The position numbers were made by a program, and so were the translations under genes. A model generated the notes under the pieces. The model was not told the DNA's origin, did no database searches, and saw only the letters and a list, made by a program, of their open reading frames with translations. A DNA stretch of 35,679 nucleotides from Chitinophagaceae bacterium (lineage in GTDB: Bacteria > Bacteroidota > Bacteroidia > Cytophagales > JASGCU01): NCBI GenBank assembly GCA_030053935.1, contig JASGCU010000015.1, forward strand, positions 1 through 35,679. Direction: 5' to 3'. Positions 10,615 to 25,718 of the stretch are shown in pieces; positions within the stretch are counted from its first letter, which is position 1, and the number at the start of each line of letters is the position of its first letter.

Positions 10615-10704
10615 GGTATTCGAAAAATGTTTCATATATTTTTTCACTCTATAAGGTATATAAGGGTTCTAAAACTTGATTTTTAGACCTATTCTTTGTA
10701 TGTA

Positions 10705-18727: not shown

Positions 18728-19789
18728 ATGAGATACTTATATATAATTTTTGCAATGCTCATTTTTTCTTGTTCTGAAAAACAAAATAATGGAAAAGAAA
18801 AAAGAAATACCTCTACCCTTCCAAAAGCGAGGGGTGATGCGGGAGAATTACTCATCGTTATGGACAGTACGGAGTGGCAGGCAAGTTTGGGTTTGGAAAT
18901 TAAAAAAGTTTTCTTTGAATCTCTTATAGGATTACCTCGTCCCGAACCCGTATTTCATATAAGGCATGTACATCCGAGTCAACTCAATTCTGTATTAAAA
19001 AATTCCAAAAATATTCTCTTTGCGGGAACACTCCATAGAAATAATAGTTCTCGTGCTTTTTTCAAAAATCTTTTTGATTCAAAACTTTTAGAAAGAATAC
19101 AGCAAGATACCTCTATCTACACTTTTTCTCAAACAGATCTTTTTGCAAGAGGGCAATTTGTTATGTTTTTAGTTGGCAATGAAGAGCTTTTTTTAATACG
19201 AAAAATACAAAAAAATAAGCATCTTTTGCAAGAAAGATTTAACTCCAAAGAAGAGGAAAGATTAGCAGAGGAGCTTTTTCGTTCTCCAAATACAGAAATC
19301 GCTTCTGCCTTACAAAAAGATCATGCCTTTTCGATGAGTATCCCCGTTTCTTATATACAGGTGAAAAATGAAAAAAACTTTGTCTGGTTTAGAACGCTTG
19401 GTGCAGAGATAGATAAGAATATCTTCTGCTATTATGAACCCTATACAGATGCAAGGGTTTTTAAGCAAGCTGATGCTCTGCGGAAGAGAATAGTGGAGCA
19501 ATGGATAGTAGACCCCGAGAAGAAAAATATCTATATGACAAATCAAAATGTATTACCCTTTCTGTTCACAGAGGTAAATTTTCAAAAAAAATATGCAGTA
19601 GAAACAAAAGGTATGTGGAAATTAAGCGATAACTCCCGTGGCGGAGCATTTATCAGCTATACGTTTGTGGACTCTTTGTCCCATAATCTCTATTATATAG
19701 AGGGGTATGTAGATGCTCCCGCAAAAGATAAACGTGAACTGATGCGTGAGCTGAAAGTAATCCTGCAAACTTTTTCTACTCGTAAGTAG
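18728..19789 (+). CDS. DUF4837 family lipoprotein
   Basis: This 353-residue protein begins with a lipoprotein signal ending at Cys15 (LIFSC), followed by a polar linker. The body matches DUF4837, a Bacteroidota family: ARGDAGELLIVMDSTEWQ near residues 34-51, LPRPEPVFHIRHVHPSQL near 70-90 and a C-terminal part including WKLSDNSRGGAFISYTFVDS and LYYIEGYVDAP. No catalytic motif is recognised. It starts 33 bp after the TIGR04282 gene and could be the last gene of that operon. A dispersed repeat begins 6 nt after its stop codon. The function of the family is unknown; location is presumably the periplasm or outer membrane. Confidence 0.85.
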   Translation: MRYLYIIFAMLIFSCSEKQNNGKEKRNTSTLPKARGDAGELLIVMDSTEWQASLGLEIKKVFFESLIGLPRPEPVFHIRHVHPSQLNSVLKNSKNILFAGTLHRNNSSRAFFKNLFDSKLLERIQQDTSIYTFSQTDLFARGQFVMFLVGNEELFLIRKIQKNKHLLQERFNSKEEERLAEELFRSPNTEIASALQKDHAFSMSIPVSYIQVKNEKNFVWFRTLGAEIDKNIFCYYEPYTDARVFKQADALRKRIVEQWIVDPEKKNIYMTNQNVLPFLFTEVNFQKKYAVETKGMWKLSDNSRGGAFISYTFVDSLSHNLYYIEGYVDAPAKDKRELMRELKVILQTFSTRK

Positions 19790-19794
19790 TACCT

Positions 19795-19878
19795 GCAAGA
19801 AAACCTCTACAACCTTGAGTAGTAAATGCATTCAATACATTATATGAGATGATATATTGTGTTTTTGTATATATAGAG
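19795..19878 (+). repeat. Dispersed repeat, copy A (behind DUF4837 gene)
   Basis: About 84 bp beginning GCAAGAAAACCTCTACAACC align along nearly their whole length with 24986-25070, with few mismatches and small indels, and share ATTCAATACATTAT and ATATTGTGTTTTTGTATATA. It starts after a 5-nt spacer behind the DUF4837 stop codon. The interior can form a weak CAATA/TATTG stem followed by GTGTTTTT, which is terminator-like. The ends AGAAAACCTCTA and TAGAGGGGTTCT are imperfect inverted repeats, which is MITE-like. Confidence 0.75.
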
Positions 19879-19925
19879 GGGTTCTAAAAATTCAAATCCT
19901 AAAACTGTATCCCTTAAAAACCAAT

Positions 19926-19954
19926 AGTAGAGACGTAATGCATTCGTCTCTACT
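19926..19954. repeat. 29-bp palindromic hairpin between convergent genes
   Basis: AGTAGAGACG (19926-19935) pairs perfectly with CGTCTCTACT (19945-19954) around a 9-nt loop containing the palindrome AATGCATT. It lies between the convergent ends of the DUF4837 and DUF2723 genes, where it could terminate or protect both transcripts. The GTAGAGACG core also resembles short palindromic interspersed repeats known from cyanobacteria and other bacteria, so it may belong to a REP-like family. Confidence 0.7.
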
Positions 19955-19966
19955 TGCAGACACTAC

Positions 19967-22954
19967 TTACAGTTCCATTCGTTTTTGAAATACTTCATAG
20001 TGTTTTCTAAACAGTTCTTCGTATTTGGTTGCGAGTTGGTTTTCTTGGATTTGTTTGAACATTTGGGAGAGTTCGTTGAGAATGATAATATTTTTTTGGA
20101 CTTCATTTGGATCCATAGTGGTATTATCTTTGAAGTAAATCAGCATTTCATCGGCTCGTTTGCTCATAGTTTCTGCTATTTTTATAGCTTTTTCTCGTTC
20201 ATCTACTTCTAATAATAAGCTTACTAATCGTAGAGTAAAATGGTCGTACATAATAGAGGTATCGGGCATAAATTCTAAGGATTTGAGGAGTACGGTTTTT
20301 GCTTTTTCTTTTTGGTTATCTTGCACTAATACTTCTGCTAATACATTGAACACGGATCTGCTATTGAGTACAAAATTTCTATAGTCCTCTGTGAGGTAGA
20401 CATTGGGGTCTTGTAATCCTCTCCAATAGCATTTGTTGATAAGATTATCATACATTACCTCGGGGTTGACGAGAGTTGTTTTTTCGCTTGGCACATTAAG
20501 AGGTAATAACCTATAGACAGTCCCTTCTTGGATTACTGATCCTTTGAGATTGAGTCCAATCCCTGAAAGAGAAGTCAGATTAAAATATATGGGTCTTTCC
20601 CATTTATTGGTATTGATGATATCTAATATAGCAAGGTCTTTTTTTTCTAAAATTCTACCAGATATGTTGATAGAAAATTTATCAGCGACCATTTCTTGAA
20701 GATAAGCAGGTACGATATTTTTTTTCCTCACGTCTGCTGTATCTACATCTACGAATACTTGTTTGGTAGGAATAGAATTATAAGAGCTGATACTATTAGT
20801 AACAAGTATAGCTGGGTGATTTTCTTTTACTAATTTGAGGTATTGGGTAAGGGATATAGAATTGTTTTTGAGAGATTCCATTTCTTGTACTACTACAAAA
20901 TCATTTGGTCCGCCTTGTCTATAATTAAGGGGGTCAAGGGAGAAAGGAAATGGTTTTGAAAGATAGGCATCTCTATACATTTGTTCTATGTACCAATCCG
21001 TGTTAAAATAGCTTAAAACTACGACTCTGACATCGGTTCGGAATCCTTCTACTTCTTGGACGTACCAAAGGGGGAAAGTATCATTATCTCCACCTGTAAA
21101 TAAGATGGCGTTGGGAGCACAAGATGCTAAAAAATTCTTTGCAGAATCTACAGAAAAATATCTATGAGATCTATTGTGGTCATCCCAATTTTCTTTTGCC
21201 ATAAGTATAGGGCAGGGCGCTGTAAGGAATAGCGATACCACAATAGGTGTGTATTTGTTCTTAAAAAATTTTGAAAGGAATTCAGAGATAGCTAATACAC
21301 TGAATCCTATCCATAGAGCAAAAAAATAAAAGGAACCTACGTATATATAATCTCGTTCTCTTGGTTCTACTGGTGGAGGGTTTAAATAGCCGATGAGTAT
21401 GAGCCCTGTCATTAAAAACAGCATCATAACTACGGAGAATGTTCTTTTATCTTTTTTTTGATGGTAAAAAAGTCCTATAATTCCTAATAAGAATGGTATC
21501 ATCAAGTAATTATTACGAGCTTTATTTTTTTTGAGTTCTTCGGGTAGTTTTTTCAAAGCATCTAATGGGGTAACCCATCCTGCATTTTGAATATCACTCT
21601 CTCGTCCTGCAAAATTCCACATAAAATATCGCATATACATGTGCCCTATTTGGTGTTTGAATAGATAGATAATATTATGTGAAAAACTTGGGCTCTCTCC
21701 TTCTTTTAACCCTACTATTTGTCTATACTCGGCATCGCTTCCTGATACATACATACGTGGTAAAATAGTAGATCTCTTTGGGTCATATTTTTGTTCCAGT
21801 TTATAATCTACTATTTCGTATCTATCTTTTTCTTCGGGTGACTTTTTGGTTACTTTTGCATACACAGCTGCTCCTCTTTTTTGGTCTATCAATTCTGCAT
21901 CGTAATAATTCCCATAGAATAGAGGTCTGGATCCATACTGTTCTCTTTTTAAGTAACTTACAAAGGAAATCAGATTTTCAGGATTATTTTCATCTATGGG
22001 AGTATTATAGTTAGAGCGTATCAGCACCAAAGTATAACAAGAATATCCTATTATAATGAATGTAAAGGAAAGCATAATGGTATTGGCAATAGGATTATTG
22101 CTTTTAATAGAATACAGAATACCAAAAAGAATTGCTCCTAAAAAGAGTATTACAAAGAAAATAGCTCCCGAATAGAAAGGGAATCCTAATGAGTTTACAA
22201 AAAACACTTCTATCTTTCCCGCAATACTGGGTAGACCTGGTATAATTCCTTCCATTATTACAACGAGTATAACTCCACCTATTGCAAATGTTGCAAGCAT
22301 GCCTTTGAGGGTTGTTTTTTTTTGTCTTTTTTTAAAATATATGAGGAGAGCAAGTGCAGGAATAGTCACTAAATTCAGAAGGTGAACTCCAATAGAAAGC
22401 CCTATTGTGTATGCAATCATAATGAGCCATCTATTCGCTTTTTGCTCGTCTTCTATTAATTCCCATTTGAGAAAAGCCCATACTACAAATGCTGTAAAGA
22501 AAGATGACATTGCGTATACTTCTGCTTCTACAGCACTGAACCAAAAACTATCTGAAAATGTGTATGCGAAACTTCCTATAATACCCGCCAAAATAATACG
22601 CATGTTCTCTTGATTACTTCCGCTCCCATTTTTTATCCCCATTATTTTATGAGCAAGGGTTGTTATGCTCCAAAAAAGAAAGAGTATAGTAAATCCCGAA
22701 AATAAAACACTGGAAATATTTATCCAATATGCTACCTTTTCTACATCTCCCCCTGCAAACATACTAAAAATACGCCCTACTAATAAAAAAAACGGTGCAC
22801 CCGGAGGGTGAGGCACTTCTAATTTATAAGATACCGCTATGAACTCCCCACAATCCCAAAAACTTGCTGTCGGCTCTACTGTTAAGAAGTATACTAATGT
22901 TGCTACTCCAAAAACAACCCATCCCACTATATTATTTATTTTTTGATATGGCAT
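19967..22954 (-). CDS. DUF2723 / GT117 family membrane protein (GT-C-like)
   Basis: This 995-residue membrane protein has about ten or more transmembrane helices. The N-terminal FWDCGEFIA motif at residues 32-40 is the signature of DUF2723 and contains the acidic pair expected near a GT-C active site. A large soluble segment (about residues 560-800) contains GGDNDTFPLWYVQEVEGFRTDV, typical of the long Bacteroidota version, and the last 150 residues are helical and TPR-like. The family is now called glycosyltransferase family 117 and is thought to transfer sugar from a lipid carrier to exported proteins. It is divergent from the TMTC-like gene at 23.2 kb. The family call is firm; donor and acceptor are unknown. 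Confidence 0.88.
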   Translation of the reverse strand: MPYQKINNIVGWVVFGVATLVYFLTVEPTASFWDCGEFIAVSYKLEVPHPPGAPFFLLVGRIFSMFAGGDVEKVAYWINISSVLFSGFTILFLFWSITTLAHKIMGIKNGSGSNQENMRIILAGIIGSFAYTFSDSFWFSAVEAEVYAMSSFFTAFVVWAFLKWELIEDEQKANRWLIMIAYTIGLSIGVHLLNLVTIPALALLIYFKKRQKKTTLKGMLATFAIGGVILVVIMEGIIPGLPSIAGKIEVFFVNSLGFPFYSGAIFFVILFLGAILFGILYSIKSNNPIANTIMLSFTFIIIGYSCYTLVLIRSNYNTPIDENNPENLISFVSYLKREQYGSRPLFYGNYYDAELIDQKRGAAVYAKVTKKSPEEKDRYEIVDYKLEQKYDPKRSTILPRMYVSGSDAEYRQIVGLKEGESPSFSHNIIYLFKHQIGHMYMRYFMWNFAGRESDIQNAGWVTPLDALKKLPEELKKNKARNNYLMIPFLLGIIGLFYHQKKDKRTFSVVMMLFLMTGLILIGYLNPPPVEPRERDYIYVGSFYFFALWIGFSVLAISEFLSKFFKNKYTPIVVSLFLTAPCPILMAKENWDDHNRSHRYFSVDSAKNFLASCAPNAILFTGGDNDTFPLWYVQEVEGFRTDVRVVVLSYFNTDWYIEQMYRDAYLSKPFPFSLDPLNYRQGGPNDFVVVQEMESLKNNSISLTQYLKLVKENHPAILVTNSISSYNSIPTKQVFVDVDTADVRKKNIVPAYLQEMVADKFSINISGRILEKKDLAILDIINTNKWERPIYFNLTSLSGIGLNLKGSVIQEGTVYRLLPLNVPSEKTTLVNPEVMYDNLINKCYWRGLQDPNVYLTEDYRNFVLNSRSVFNVLAEVLVQDNQKEKAKTVLLKSLEFMPDTSIMYDHFTLRLVSLLLEVDEREKAIKIAETMSKRADEMLIYFKDNTTMDPNEVQKNIIILNELSQMFKQIQENQLATKYEELFRKHYEVFQKRMEL

Positions 22955-23243
22955 CTTTTTTTAATTTTGATTCTTCGGTATGAAGTGTAATTTGTAACTA
23001 CAAAAATGTATTTTAATATAATGATAATTGATAATATAACCTAAATAGCTATATACTTGGTGATTATTCATTTGTGTTCGTAATATATGTGTTTTTTATA
23101 ATGTATTACAATAAAAAATAATATTCTTTTCTTTTTTGAGAGAATAAAATCTTATTTTTTACTAATTTCTTTTTAAAATAGCATACCATGTTATTTTAGA
23201 ATGAATTGTAATATAATAAAGTAGATAGCATTTTTTGTATTTT
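22955..23243. other. Divergent promoter region between GT117 and TMTC-like genes
   Basis: This A+T-rich spacer of about 290 bp must hold both divergent promoters. On the plus strand TAATTTTG preceded by a TTTTTTG tract near 22945-22970 is a possible -7/-33 pair, but it lies about 275 nt from the plus-strand start. Nothing coding is visible. Confidence 0.4.
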
Positions 23244-24980
23244 ATGAAGCGAGCACAAAAAACTAAAAAAAATAATCACAACCCATTAGCACTCACTCAA
23301 GAAAAAATAAGAGGTGAGAATATATCTTACAACTATTGTTTTCTGGCAATTACTGTCATTGGACTTTTTTTATATGGGCAGACATTTTTCTTTGACTACG
23401 TGTATTTAGATGATACCACCGCTATTCATGATGGAAAGGCATATTTTGAGGTATTTTCTCATATTTGGGAGGGATTTATTAGATCTGCATGGTTAGATTA
23501 TTACCGCCCTGTGCTGTTCGGGAGTATCATTTTGAACTATACCATGGGAGGACAAGACCCTTTTATATATCATTTTTTTAATGTTTTTTTTCATATATTT
23601 TCTTGTTGCCTCCTTTTTTGGTTTCTTGTACTTTTAAAATATGAAAGGATCTATGCTCTTTTAACGACTCTTCTTTTTGTAGTTCATCCTCTTTTTTCAC
23701 AAGCGGTTTCATGGATTTTTGGAAGAAATGACCCTCTCCTCTCTATAGCAATGTTGAGTTCTTTCATTTTTTTATTGCATTATATAGAATATAAAAAAAA
23801 ATATTGGTATCTGCTCCATTTAGTATTCTTCTTTTTAGCACTTTGCACAAAAGAAACAGGGATAGGGATCCCCTTAGTCTACGCTGCTTATATAGTGTTT
23901 GTAACAAAAAATAAAAAATTTCTTTTTACAGGATACAAACCGTCTCCCTTACTTATAGGATGGATATTGGTAGTTATATTTTGGTATTTTTTGAGAACGC
24001 ATGCATTGAACACCCTTTCGGGTAATCGCACACTCAACAGTACTTTTGGAATAGATGCACTGCTTTATAACATCCCTACTATAAGTGAGTTTTTAGCAAA
24101 ATTTTTTGTTCCGATACAACTTTCTGTCTTCGCTAGTTTTTCTCAAGGAATGACTCTTTTAGGAATATTTTTATATCTTTTTTTAGGAATTCTTTGTTAT
24201 ATAAAAATAGTTTCTCGGGAATTTTTTCTTTGGGTATCTATCTGGTGGTTTGTTTTTTTAATTCCTCCTCTTCTTATTTTATATGATGCAGATAAACTGA
24301 GTGATTACTTAGAGCATAGAGCGTATCTCCCCGCAATATCTCTCATCCTCCTCCTCAATGAAATGCTTAAAAACATCAAAAATAAAAAAATACCTCCTCT
24401 CTTGCCCATTTCAGTAGATACCATATTCAAATATGCATTGGTAAGTATCATCTCTCTCTTTTTTATTATTACATTTTTGCATACACAGAACTTTAAAAAT
24501 GTCTATACTTTTTGGACAAATGCGACTGAAACATCTCCCCAACATCCCGGCAGTTGGAAAGCTCTCGGAAAGCCCTATTACGAAAGTGGAAATAGAGACA
24601 AAGCACAAGAATATTTTCTAAAATCTTTTGAGAGGAACCCGAAAGATTGGGAGATTTGTTATAGTTTAGGTTTTCTTTTTGAAAAAAAACAAAAATATGA
24701 CTCTGCTCTTTTCTTCTATAAATATGCTACTCTTGCCGATGAAAAACGATGGGAAGCTTTTGTAAATATAGGGGTACTCTATTTTTATCAAAAAAAATAT
24801 GATGAAGCAGAAAAATACTGGAAACATACCATTACTCTTTCTGACAATGAAAGTGCCTATATAAATCTTGTTTCCCTTGCCATTCAAAAAAATAATCTCA
24901 CCGAAGCAAAGTACTATTTAGAATTACTGAAATCCAAAGGAAAAGATGTTTCTGCCTCTTTTCCACAATTACATGAATGA
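23244..24980 (+). CDS. TMTC-like polytopic membrane protein with C-terminal TPRs
   Basis: This protein of about 578 residues has roughly eleven hydrophobic segments up to about residue 425, then three or four tetratricopeptide repeats to the end (motifs around WKALGKPYYESGNRDKAQEYFLKSF and AFVNIGVLYFYQKKYDEAEKYW at intervals near 34 residues). The first periplasmic loop holds Asp56-Asp57 (YLDDTTAI), then YRPVLFGSI and VHPLFSQAVSWIFGRND, the pattern of TMTC/PMT-like O-mannosyltransferases of the GT-C fold. It probably glycosylates exported proteins from a lipid-linked sugar. I use the ATG at 23244; a TTG three codons earlier is possible. Enzymatic activity is inferred from family resemblance. 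Confidence 0.78.
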   Translation: MKRAQKTKKNNHNPLALTQEKIRGENISYNYCFLAITVIGLFLYGQTFFFDYVYLDDTTAIHDGKAYFEVFSHIWEGFIRSAWLDYYRPVLFGSIILNYTMGGQDPFIYHFFNVFFHIFSCCLLFWFLVLLKYERIYALLTTLLFVVHPLFSQAVSWIFGRNDPLLSIAMLSSFIFLLHYIEYKKKYWYLLHLVFFFLALCTKETGIGIPLVYAAYIVFVTKNKKFLFTGYKPSPLLIGWILVVIFWYFLRTHALNTLSGNRTLNSTFGIDALLYNIPTISEFLAKFFVPIQLSVFASFSQGMTLLGIFLYLFLGILCYIKIVSREFFLWVSIWWFVFLIPPLLILYDADKLSDYLEHRAYLPAISLILLLNEMLKNIKNKKIPPLLPISVDTIFKYALVSIISLFFIITFLHTQNFKNVYTFWTNATETSPQHPGSWKALGKPYYESGNRDKAQEYFLKSFERNPKDWEICYSLGFLFEKKQKYDSALFFYKYATLADEKRWEAFVNIGVLYFYQKKYDEAEKYWKHTITLSDNESAYINLVSLAIQKNNLTEAKYYLELLKSKGKDVSASFPQLHE

Positions 24981-24985
24981 GCATC

Positions 24986-25070
24986 GCAAGAGAACCTCTA
25001 AAACCTTGATTAGTAAATGGATTCAATACATTATTAATGATGAATATATTGTGTTTTTGTATATAATAGA
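24986..25070 (+). repeat. Dispersed repeat, copy B (behind TMTC-like gene)
   Basis: About 85 bp beginning GCAAGAGAACCTCTAAAACC align with copy A at 19795-19878. As in copy A it starts after a 5-nt spacer behind a plus-strand stop codon. The right terminal inverted part of copy A (TAGAGGGGTTCT) is not preserved. The internal weak stem and following GTGTTTTT are kept, which suggests function at RNA level, for example in termination or 3'-end processing. Confidence 0.75.
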
Positions 25071-25146
25071 TAAAAATATTAATTATTCACTATTTTAGCA
25101 AAAGACAATACATTTGAGATAGTCGCAAAACTAAATTAAAAAGTCC

Positions 25147-25277: not shown

Positions 25278-25718
25278 ATGGATTTAACAAAAATAGTAGT
25301 AGCAGAGGGACAGTCGGGATTGTATAGATTTATAAATCAAAATAAATCGGGAAGTATTTTAGAAACATTAGATGGCACAGAAAAGAAAATAGTGGTCAGA
25401 AATGGCTATAAAGTTTCTTCATTAGAAGAAATACAAGTTTTTTTAGAGACAGAAAAACAAACTATCCTTTTAAAAGAAATATTTCTCATTCTTTACGAAA
25501 AGTATAAAAAAGAACTTCCTTTACCCAGGAAATCATCGGATAAAGAATTAAAACTTTTTTTTGAAGAGTTTTTACCTGAATATGATAAAGAAAGAGTGAG
25601 TTTGAGAGATATGAAAAAAATAGTCAATTGGTATAGAATCCTGTCAGAATATGCTCCTGAATTATTTGTAGAACCAAAAAATCAGAAGGAAGAAAACACA
25701 AAGAATGAATCGAAATGA
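25278..25718 (+). CDS. DUF5606 family protein
   Basis: This 146-residue protein matches DUF5606, a small cytoplasmic Bacteroidota family. The N-terminal 60 residues (DLTKIVVAEGQSGLYRFINQ, then SILETLDGTEKKIVV) form the conserved beta-rich part, and the C-terminal half is helical and charged, with FFEEFLPEYDKERVSLRDMKKIVNWY. No signal peptide or catalytic motif is seen. Its stop overlaps the start of the FAD/Fe-S gene by 4 bp, so the two are coupled. Members often lie near peptide deformylase or Holliday junction resolvase genes in related genomes (recalled context); neither is present here. Function unknown. Confidence 0.8.
   Translation: MDLTKIVVAEGQSGLYRFINQNKSGSILETLDGTEKKIVVRNGYKVSSLEEIQVFLETEKQTILLKEIFLILYEKYKKELPLPRKSSDKELKLFFEEFLPEYDKERVSLRDMKKIVNWYRILSEYAPELFVEPKNQKEENTKNESK

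Follow-up and report, generated by a model that had tools for sequence, protein, structure and literature searches.

Two unrelated genes within a 35,679-nt stretch of a Chitinophagaceae genome (assembly GCA_030053935.1, contig JASGCU010000015.1, positions 1 to 35,679; hereafter the window) are each followed, directly behind the stop codon, by the same short repeat. The locus thus raises the question of whether this repeat is a functional part of the gene 3′ end, such as a terminator or a 3′-UTR element, or a mobile element that has come to rest there. No other repeat pair in the window comes close to the two copies, A (aligned at 19795–19877) and B (24986–25070), which are 88% identical across 85 bp (E 2e-22); this bears out the initial annotation that they align over nearly their full length. 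Copy A is preceded by the plus-strand TAG (19787–19789) of a gene with a DUF4837 match in Pfam (207 bits), which reaches the final profile position and stops 5 residues short of the stop. Copy B is preceded by the plus-strand TGA (24978–24980) of a gene for a TMTC-like TPR protein. Very probably (roughly 0.9), each is the left end of a decayed MITE copy, the MITE being a non-autonomous element derived by deletion from an ISNCY-family IS.

In a consensus search of the 2.55-Mb genome (156 contigs), this left end (LE) was recovered about 25 times, in copies dispersed over many contigs and lacking a transposase; a second, different end (RE), whose first 20 nt are those of LE, inverted, has about 28 copies. 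The genome copies were examined in sequence stretches around the matches; an exact-pattern scan of the genome contigs gave no match. Some ten copies pair LE with an inverted RE to form elements of ~110 to 710 bp bounded by the terminal inverted repeat (TIR) GTRTCTGCAAGAAAACTC, typically 110–300 bp long when complete. They include elements of ~108 bp (contig C63), 119 bp (C22), 126 bp (C48), ~230 bp (C143), 268 bp (C44), ~280 and ~297 bp (both C1) and ~709 bp (C6), with convergent ends carrying GTRTCTGCAAGAAAACTC at C63, C48, C44, C1, C6 and others. As read from their sequences, the convergent pairs are built like a MITE family that includes a series of deletion forms. On C1, an element sits inserted in the LE of another copy, and this is direct evidence of past movement. 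The earlier proposal of a family of mobile elements is therefore upheld by the copy numbers of the two ends, the complete TIR-bounded copies and the ISNCY transposase remnants described below.

Several further observations concern the extent of the family. Four right ends (L031, L045, L047 and L187, the last at C8:8033) share the 20-nt TIR, which is then followed by a different inner sequence, for example CTTTTTACATAAATATTGAGTTT; they are perhaps a second, related IS. In four fragments (L087, L089, L092 and L094), which may be truncated MITEs or reused promoters, the TIR is absent and what remains of LE is its inner part around TGAATATATTGTATTTTTGTATATAATAGAT. One contig of the assembly stops precisely within the TIR (C44:19230–19243), which suggests that the family contributes to breaks in the assembly. 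A DNA search of 39 relatives, the nearest of them from the same order, returned only a 38-nt match (TAGTGAATAATTGATATTTTT) to the inner LE part, at two places (L101 and L102) in one genome of the same order, G021; these matches probably mark the termini of a different IS in that small genome.

The parentage of the family is indicated by what lies inside its longer copies. The 709-bp C6 element contains a decayed reading frame, GLNRCKDKGIKGYKSYVGLSVLAHNLHRIGNQL, and three further relics of the same transposase are found at C48, C31 and C67, each adjoining RE. All four are C-terminal relics lying roughly 150–230 bp inside RE; those of C6 and C48 match NCBIfam NF033593 (transpos_ISNCY_1) at positions 406–443, while those of C31 and C67 are weaker fragments. 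A search of the genome with NF033593 found no intact ISNCY transposase gene, so the agent of mobilisation is inferred. Among 390 genomes of the order, a good transposase relative is present in G101 only (351 bits against NF033593, two frames joined), and a 515-aa relative occurs in Candidatus Brocadia sapporoensis. Both transposases are encoded by elements with recognisable ends and a perfect 6-bp duplication: TAAATA|GTATCTGCCCGAAAAC...GTTTCCGGGCAGATAC|TAAATA in G101 and TACTTA|GTGTCTGAACGAAAAC...GTTTTCGTTCAGACAC|TACTTA in Candidatus Brocadia. The family TIR, GTRTCTGCAAGAAAAC, is the TIR of these two elements, with about 16/18 identity to each. Beyond the TIR, LE has no evident counterpart in either element.

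The flanks of the copies define the target. In 49 distinct ends of the genome, TA occurs at −4 in 40 and at 0 in 35, against a background of 12% (p about 1e-28), and since these positions line up with the two relatives, the target is read as TANNTA. A duplication of TA only was considered and dropped in favour of TANNTA after the two intact relatives had been aligned. Complete copies in the window's genome have TANNTA flanks on both sides, with 6-mers that mostly differ from each other, so that intact target-site duplications (TSDs) are seen in the two relatives only; the non-identical flanks are consistent with age or with recombination between copies. In G101, a further copy in a more advanced state of decay (L125) retains TANNTA at its left side only. 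At the level of sequence, then, the family with its two ends, the TIR match, the transposase remnants, the TANNTA motif and the TSDs of two relatives can all be read directly. In the proposed mechanism, an ISNCY transposase since lost from the genome would have recognised the TIR and mobilised the elements in trans, inserting them at TANNTA with duplication of those 6 bp. Insertions would then have persisted between genes, presumably by selection for harmless sites.

This target accounts for the position of copy A in detail. Its left target 6-mer, TAAGTA, is read at 19783–19788 on the plus strand by reference to the TANNTA of the 49 ends, and the junction is TAAGTA|GTACCTGCAAG. The TAG stop of the DUF4837 gene consists of the last TA of this 6-mer and the first base of the element, a G at 19789. 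The left end itself, with TIR GTACCTGCAAGAAAACC..., occupies 19789–19874 (plus strand). Copy B (24981–25093, plus strand) is a left end of the same family, 93% identical to the consensus, in which the TIR is decayed and lacks one base, so that its stop is offset by one relative to that of copy A. The initial annotation placed both copies exactly 5 nt behind a stop codon. A plus-strand stop does lie directly before each, but the homology of all aligned copies starts within the stop codon, and the equal spacer is partly a coincidence because copy B has lost a TIR base.

The remainder of copy A is composite. Its left end is followed at 19875–19926 (plus strand) by the left part (AGAGGGGTTCTAAAAATTCAAATCC...) of a second family, R2, nested in copy A. 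R2 has at least 40 copies of ~100 bp in the genome, mostly 90–98% alike, with TIR AGAGGGGTTCTAAAAATT...AATTTTTAGAACCCACCT and often TA outside both ends; on these sequence features it is a second MITE family, younger-looking than the first. The sequence AGAGGGGTTCT in copy A is the R2 TIR. The R2 right arm is missing here and a palindrome, GTAGAGACG, follows instead. This third repeat, GTAGAGACGTAATGCATTCGTCTCTAC (19927–19953), occurs also within R2 copies on C1, C3, C9 and C65; as GTAGAGACGTAATGCATTACGTCTCTAC, the palindrome is nested in R2 copies L128, L129, L130 and L132, and it appears akin to the GTAG-tagged REPs (PMC3733652). The imperfect inverted ends AGAAAACCTCTA and TAGAGGGGTTCT, earlier assigned to one element, do not belong together, as the right one is the nested R2 TIR. 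Its reported recurrence at 10655–10675 is at chance level (E 0.14), and its score over the whole window falls in the range obtained by shuffling. Copy A most likely ends on the right with the inverted TIR CTTGCAGACAC at 19953–19963 (plus strand); its 13 nt, TA included, match the RE terminus exactly, and about 1 in 200 shuffles attains the score of 26. Closed in this way, copy A measures 179 bp including the TA on either side, and the reading as a complete element is moderately supported. The right target 6-mer (19964–19969, minus strand; TACTTA on the plus strand, TAAGTA on the minus) contains the TAA stop of a TMEM260-like gene that runs towards the DUF4837 gene, and the element thus spans the interval between the two stops. 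For copy B, a right end was looked for and not found.

Repeats come to lie on stop codons because a TANNTA target together with the terminal G of the element can contain or complete a stop. Where the stop forms the first half of the target (TAA or TAG, then N-TA and the element G), it would remain intact upstream; where the target TA is joined to the first G of the element, a TAG stop would be created. Either insertion would change the protein little or not at all, and since the stop is kept or re-formed, a recurring stop-then-repeat arrangement would result. Six of the nine stop-abutting ends are in the registers predicted by this model, either +1 (TAA-N-TA|G: C6:58426, C21:8276, C1:81589 and the right end of copy A) or −3 (TA|G: the left end of copy A and C77). 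Copy B, whose TGA stands at −2, is at odds with the simple TANNTA model unless a later mutation is assumed. A stronger version, in which stop codons are a favoured landing place and the ISNCY-derived insertion re-forms the stop and gives its host gene a new 3′ region, appears unlikely; if it holds, mobile elements with DDE transposases would have a strategy compatible with stop codons.

Preference for gene 3′ ends had been set as a test of the original proposal, and was tabulated for the outer ends of the copies. Among 47 scorable outer ends, 25 face gene 3′ ends and 22 face gene 5′ ends (binomial p 0.77), so a general 3′-end preference fails, and the description of the family as 3′-end elements holds only for a subset: among the 25 three-prime flanks, 9 have a stop at most 6 nt away, where random intergenic placement would give 3.8% and the control family R2 gives 2 of 30 (p 0.015). 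These position tests are only indicative, because they rely on simple ORF-based gene calls and on a null from a single 36-kb window. The stop-near excess over both comparisons would favour a MITE that truly targets stop codons or the 3′ ends of genes, rather than survival of harmless insertions. However, such targeting is very unlikely given the balance of 25 to 22 and the limits of the gene calls and null; moreover, TANNTA would lead to the same positions if purifying selection acted against insertions in gene bodies and promoters. The stop-abutting excess needs no true targeting, since survival of harmless insertions accounts for it.

The same counts bear on whether the repeat is a conserved 3′-UTR or terminator RNA element, in which CAATA/TATTG would form the fold and the U-rich stretch behind it the transcript end. 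In favour of this, a stop codon immediately precedes both window copies, and the 9-bp AT stem is paired in 85% of cells, a higher share than after sliding. Yet in 15 sequences none of the pairs has changed on both sides, shuffled columns pair equally well, and the stem is AT-rich throughout. Neither copy was called as a terminator-like site in a terminator scan, an Rfam scan of the window matched no family, 22 of the 47 outer ends face gene 5′ ends, and the complete copies C63, C48 and C22 are without the stem region altogether. Descent from one IS end explains why the repeat is conserved. An intrinsic terminator or 3′-UTR RNA element, both suggested by the initial annotation, was therefore rejected for want of compensatory changes and of a consistent gene 3′-end position, and is hardly credible here. 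It is also distinctly unlikely that the MITE carries an old transposase promoter, TATTTTTG, which supplies downstream genes (for copy B, the DUF5606 gene at 25278). The motif fits the Bacteroidota −7 motif, TAnnTTTG; it lies in LE, towards the presumed transposase start, and persists in most LE copies, and four TIR-less fragments (C77, C136, C94 and C66) retain its region. Against this, TAnnTTTG is about equally frequent on both strands upstream of genes in the genome (27 vs 23), and since it is enriched on both strands it is not informative for a promoter; the paired −33 motif is not enriched.

Descent from an ISNCY-family IS places the window copies among known kinds of element. With the ISNCY IS of G101 and Candidatus Brocadia sapporoensis (NF033593) the family shares the TIR GTRTCTGNNNGAAAAC, the TANNTA flank and a transposase C-terminus near the right end; unlike them, the window copies have no transposase, and the genome keeps only C-terminal relics. 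Like bacterial MITEs, the elements are short, dispersed, intergenic, TIR-bounded and non-coding, and form an internal deletion series of an IS, whereas, unlike bacterial MITEs in general, their TSDs in this genome are mostly decayed and an active partner transposase is lacking. The termini of GTAG REPs often supply a TAG stop to flanking ORFs, a close precedent for the stop supplied by copy A; those REPs are 20–40-bp hairpins linked to RAYT tyrosine transposases, in contrast to a family with TIRs and a DDE-transposase parent (PMC3733652). The IS1202 family, a former ISNCY group with a large DDE transposase (441–457 aa in the ISAjo2 type), resembles the present family in that label and in its large DDE transposase, but the ISAjo2 type has 5′-TGT outer ends, a 5-bp TSD and pdif/dif targets, where the window family has GTRTCTG ends at TANNTA (PMC10132070). 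The window family is thus an ordinary kind of element, an ISNCY-derived MITE, already known in type.

A 6-bp TANNTA duplication is recorded here for two ISNCY-family elements, one from the window's order and one from Candidatus Brocadia. An apparent 3′-UTR element is re-read as a decayed mobile element, and the TANNTA target with its terminal G gives a concrete reason for recurrence exactly on stop codons. The same arrangement is a pitfall for any search for conserved 3′-end RNA motifs in AT-rich genomes.
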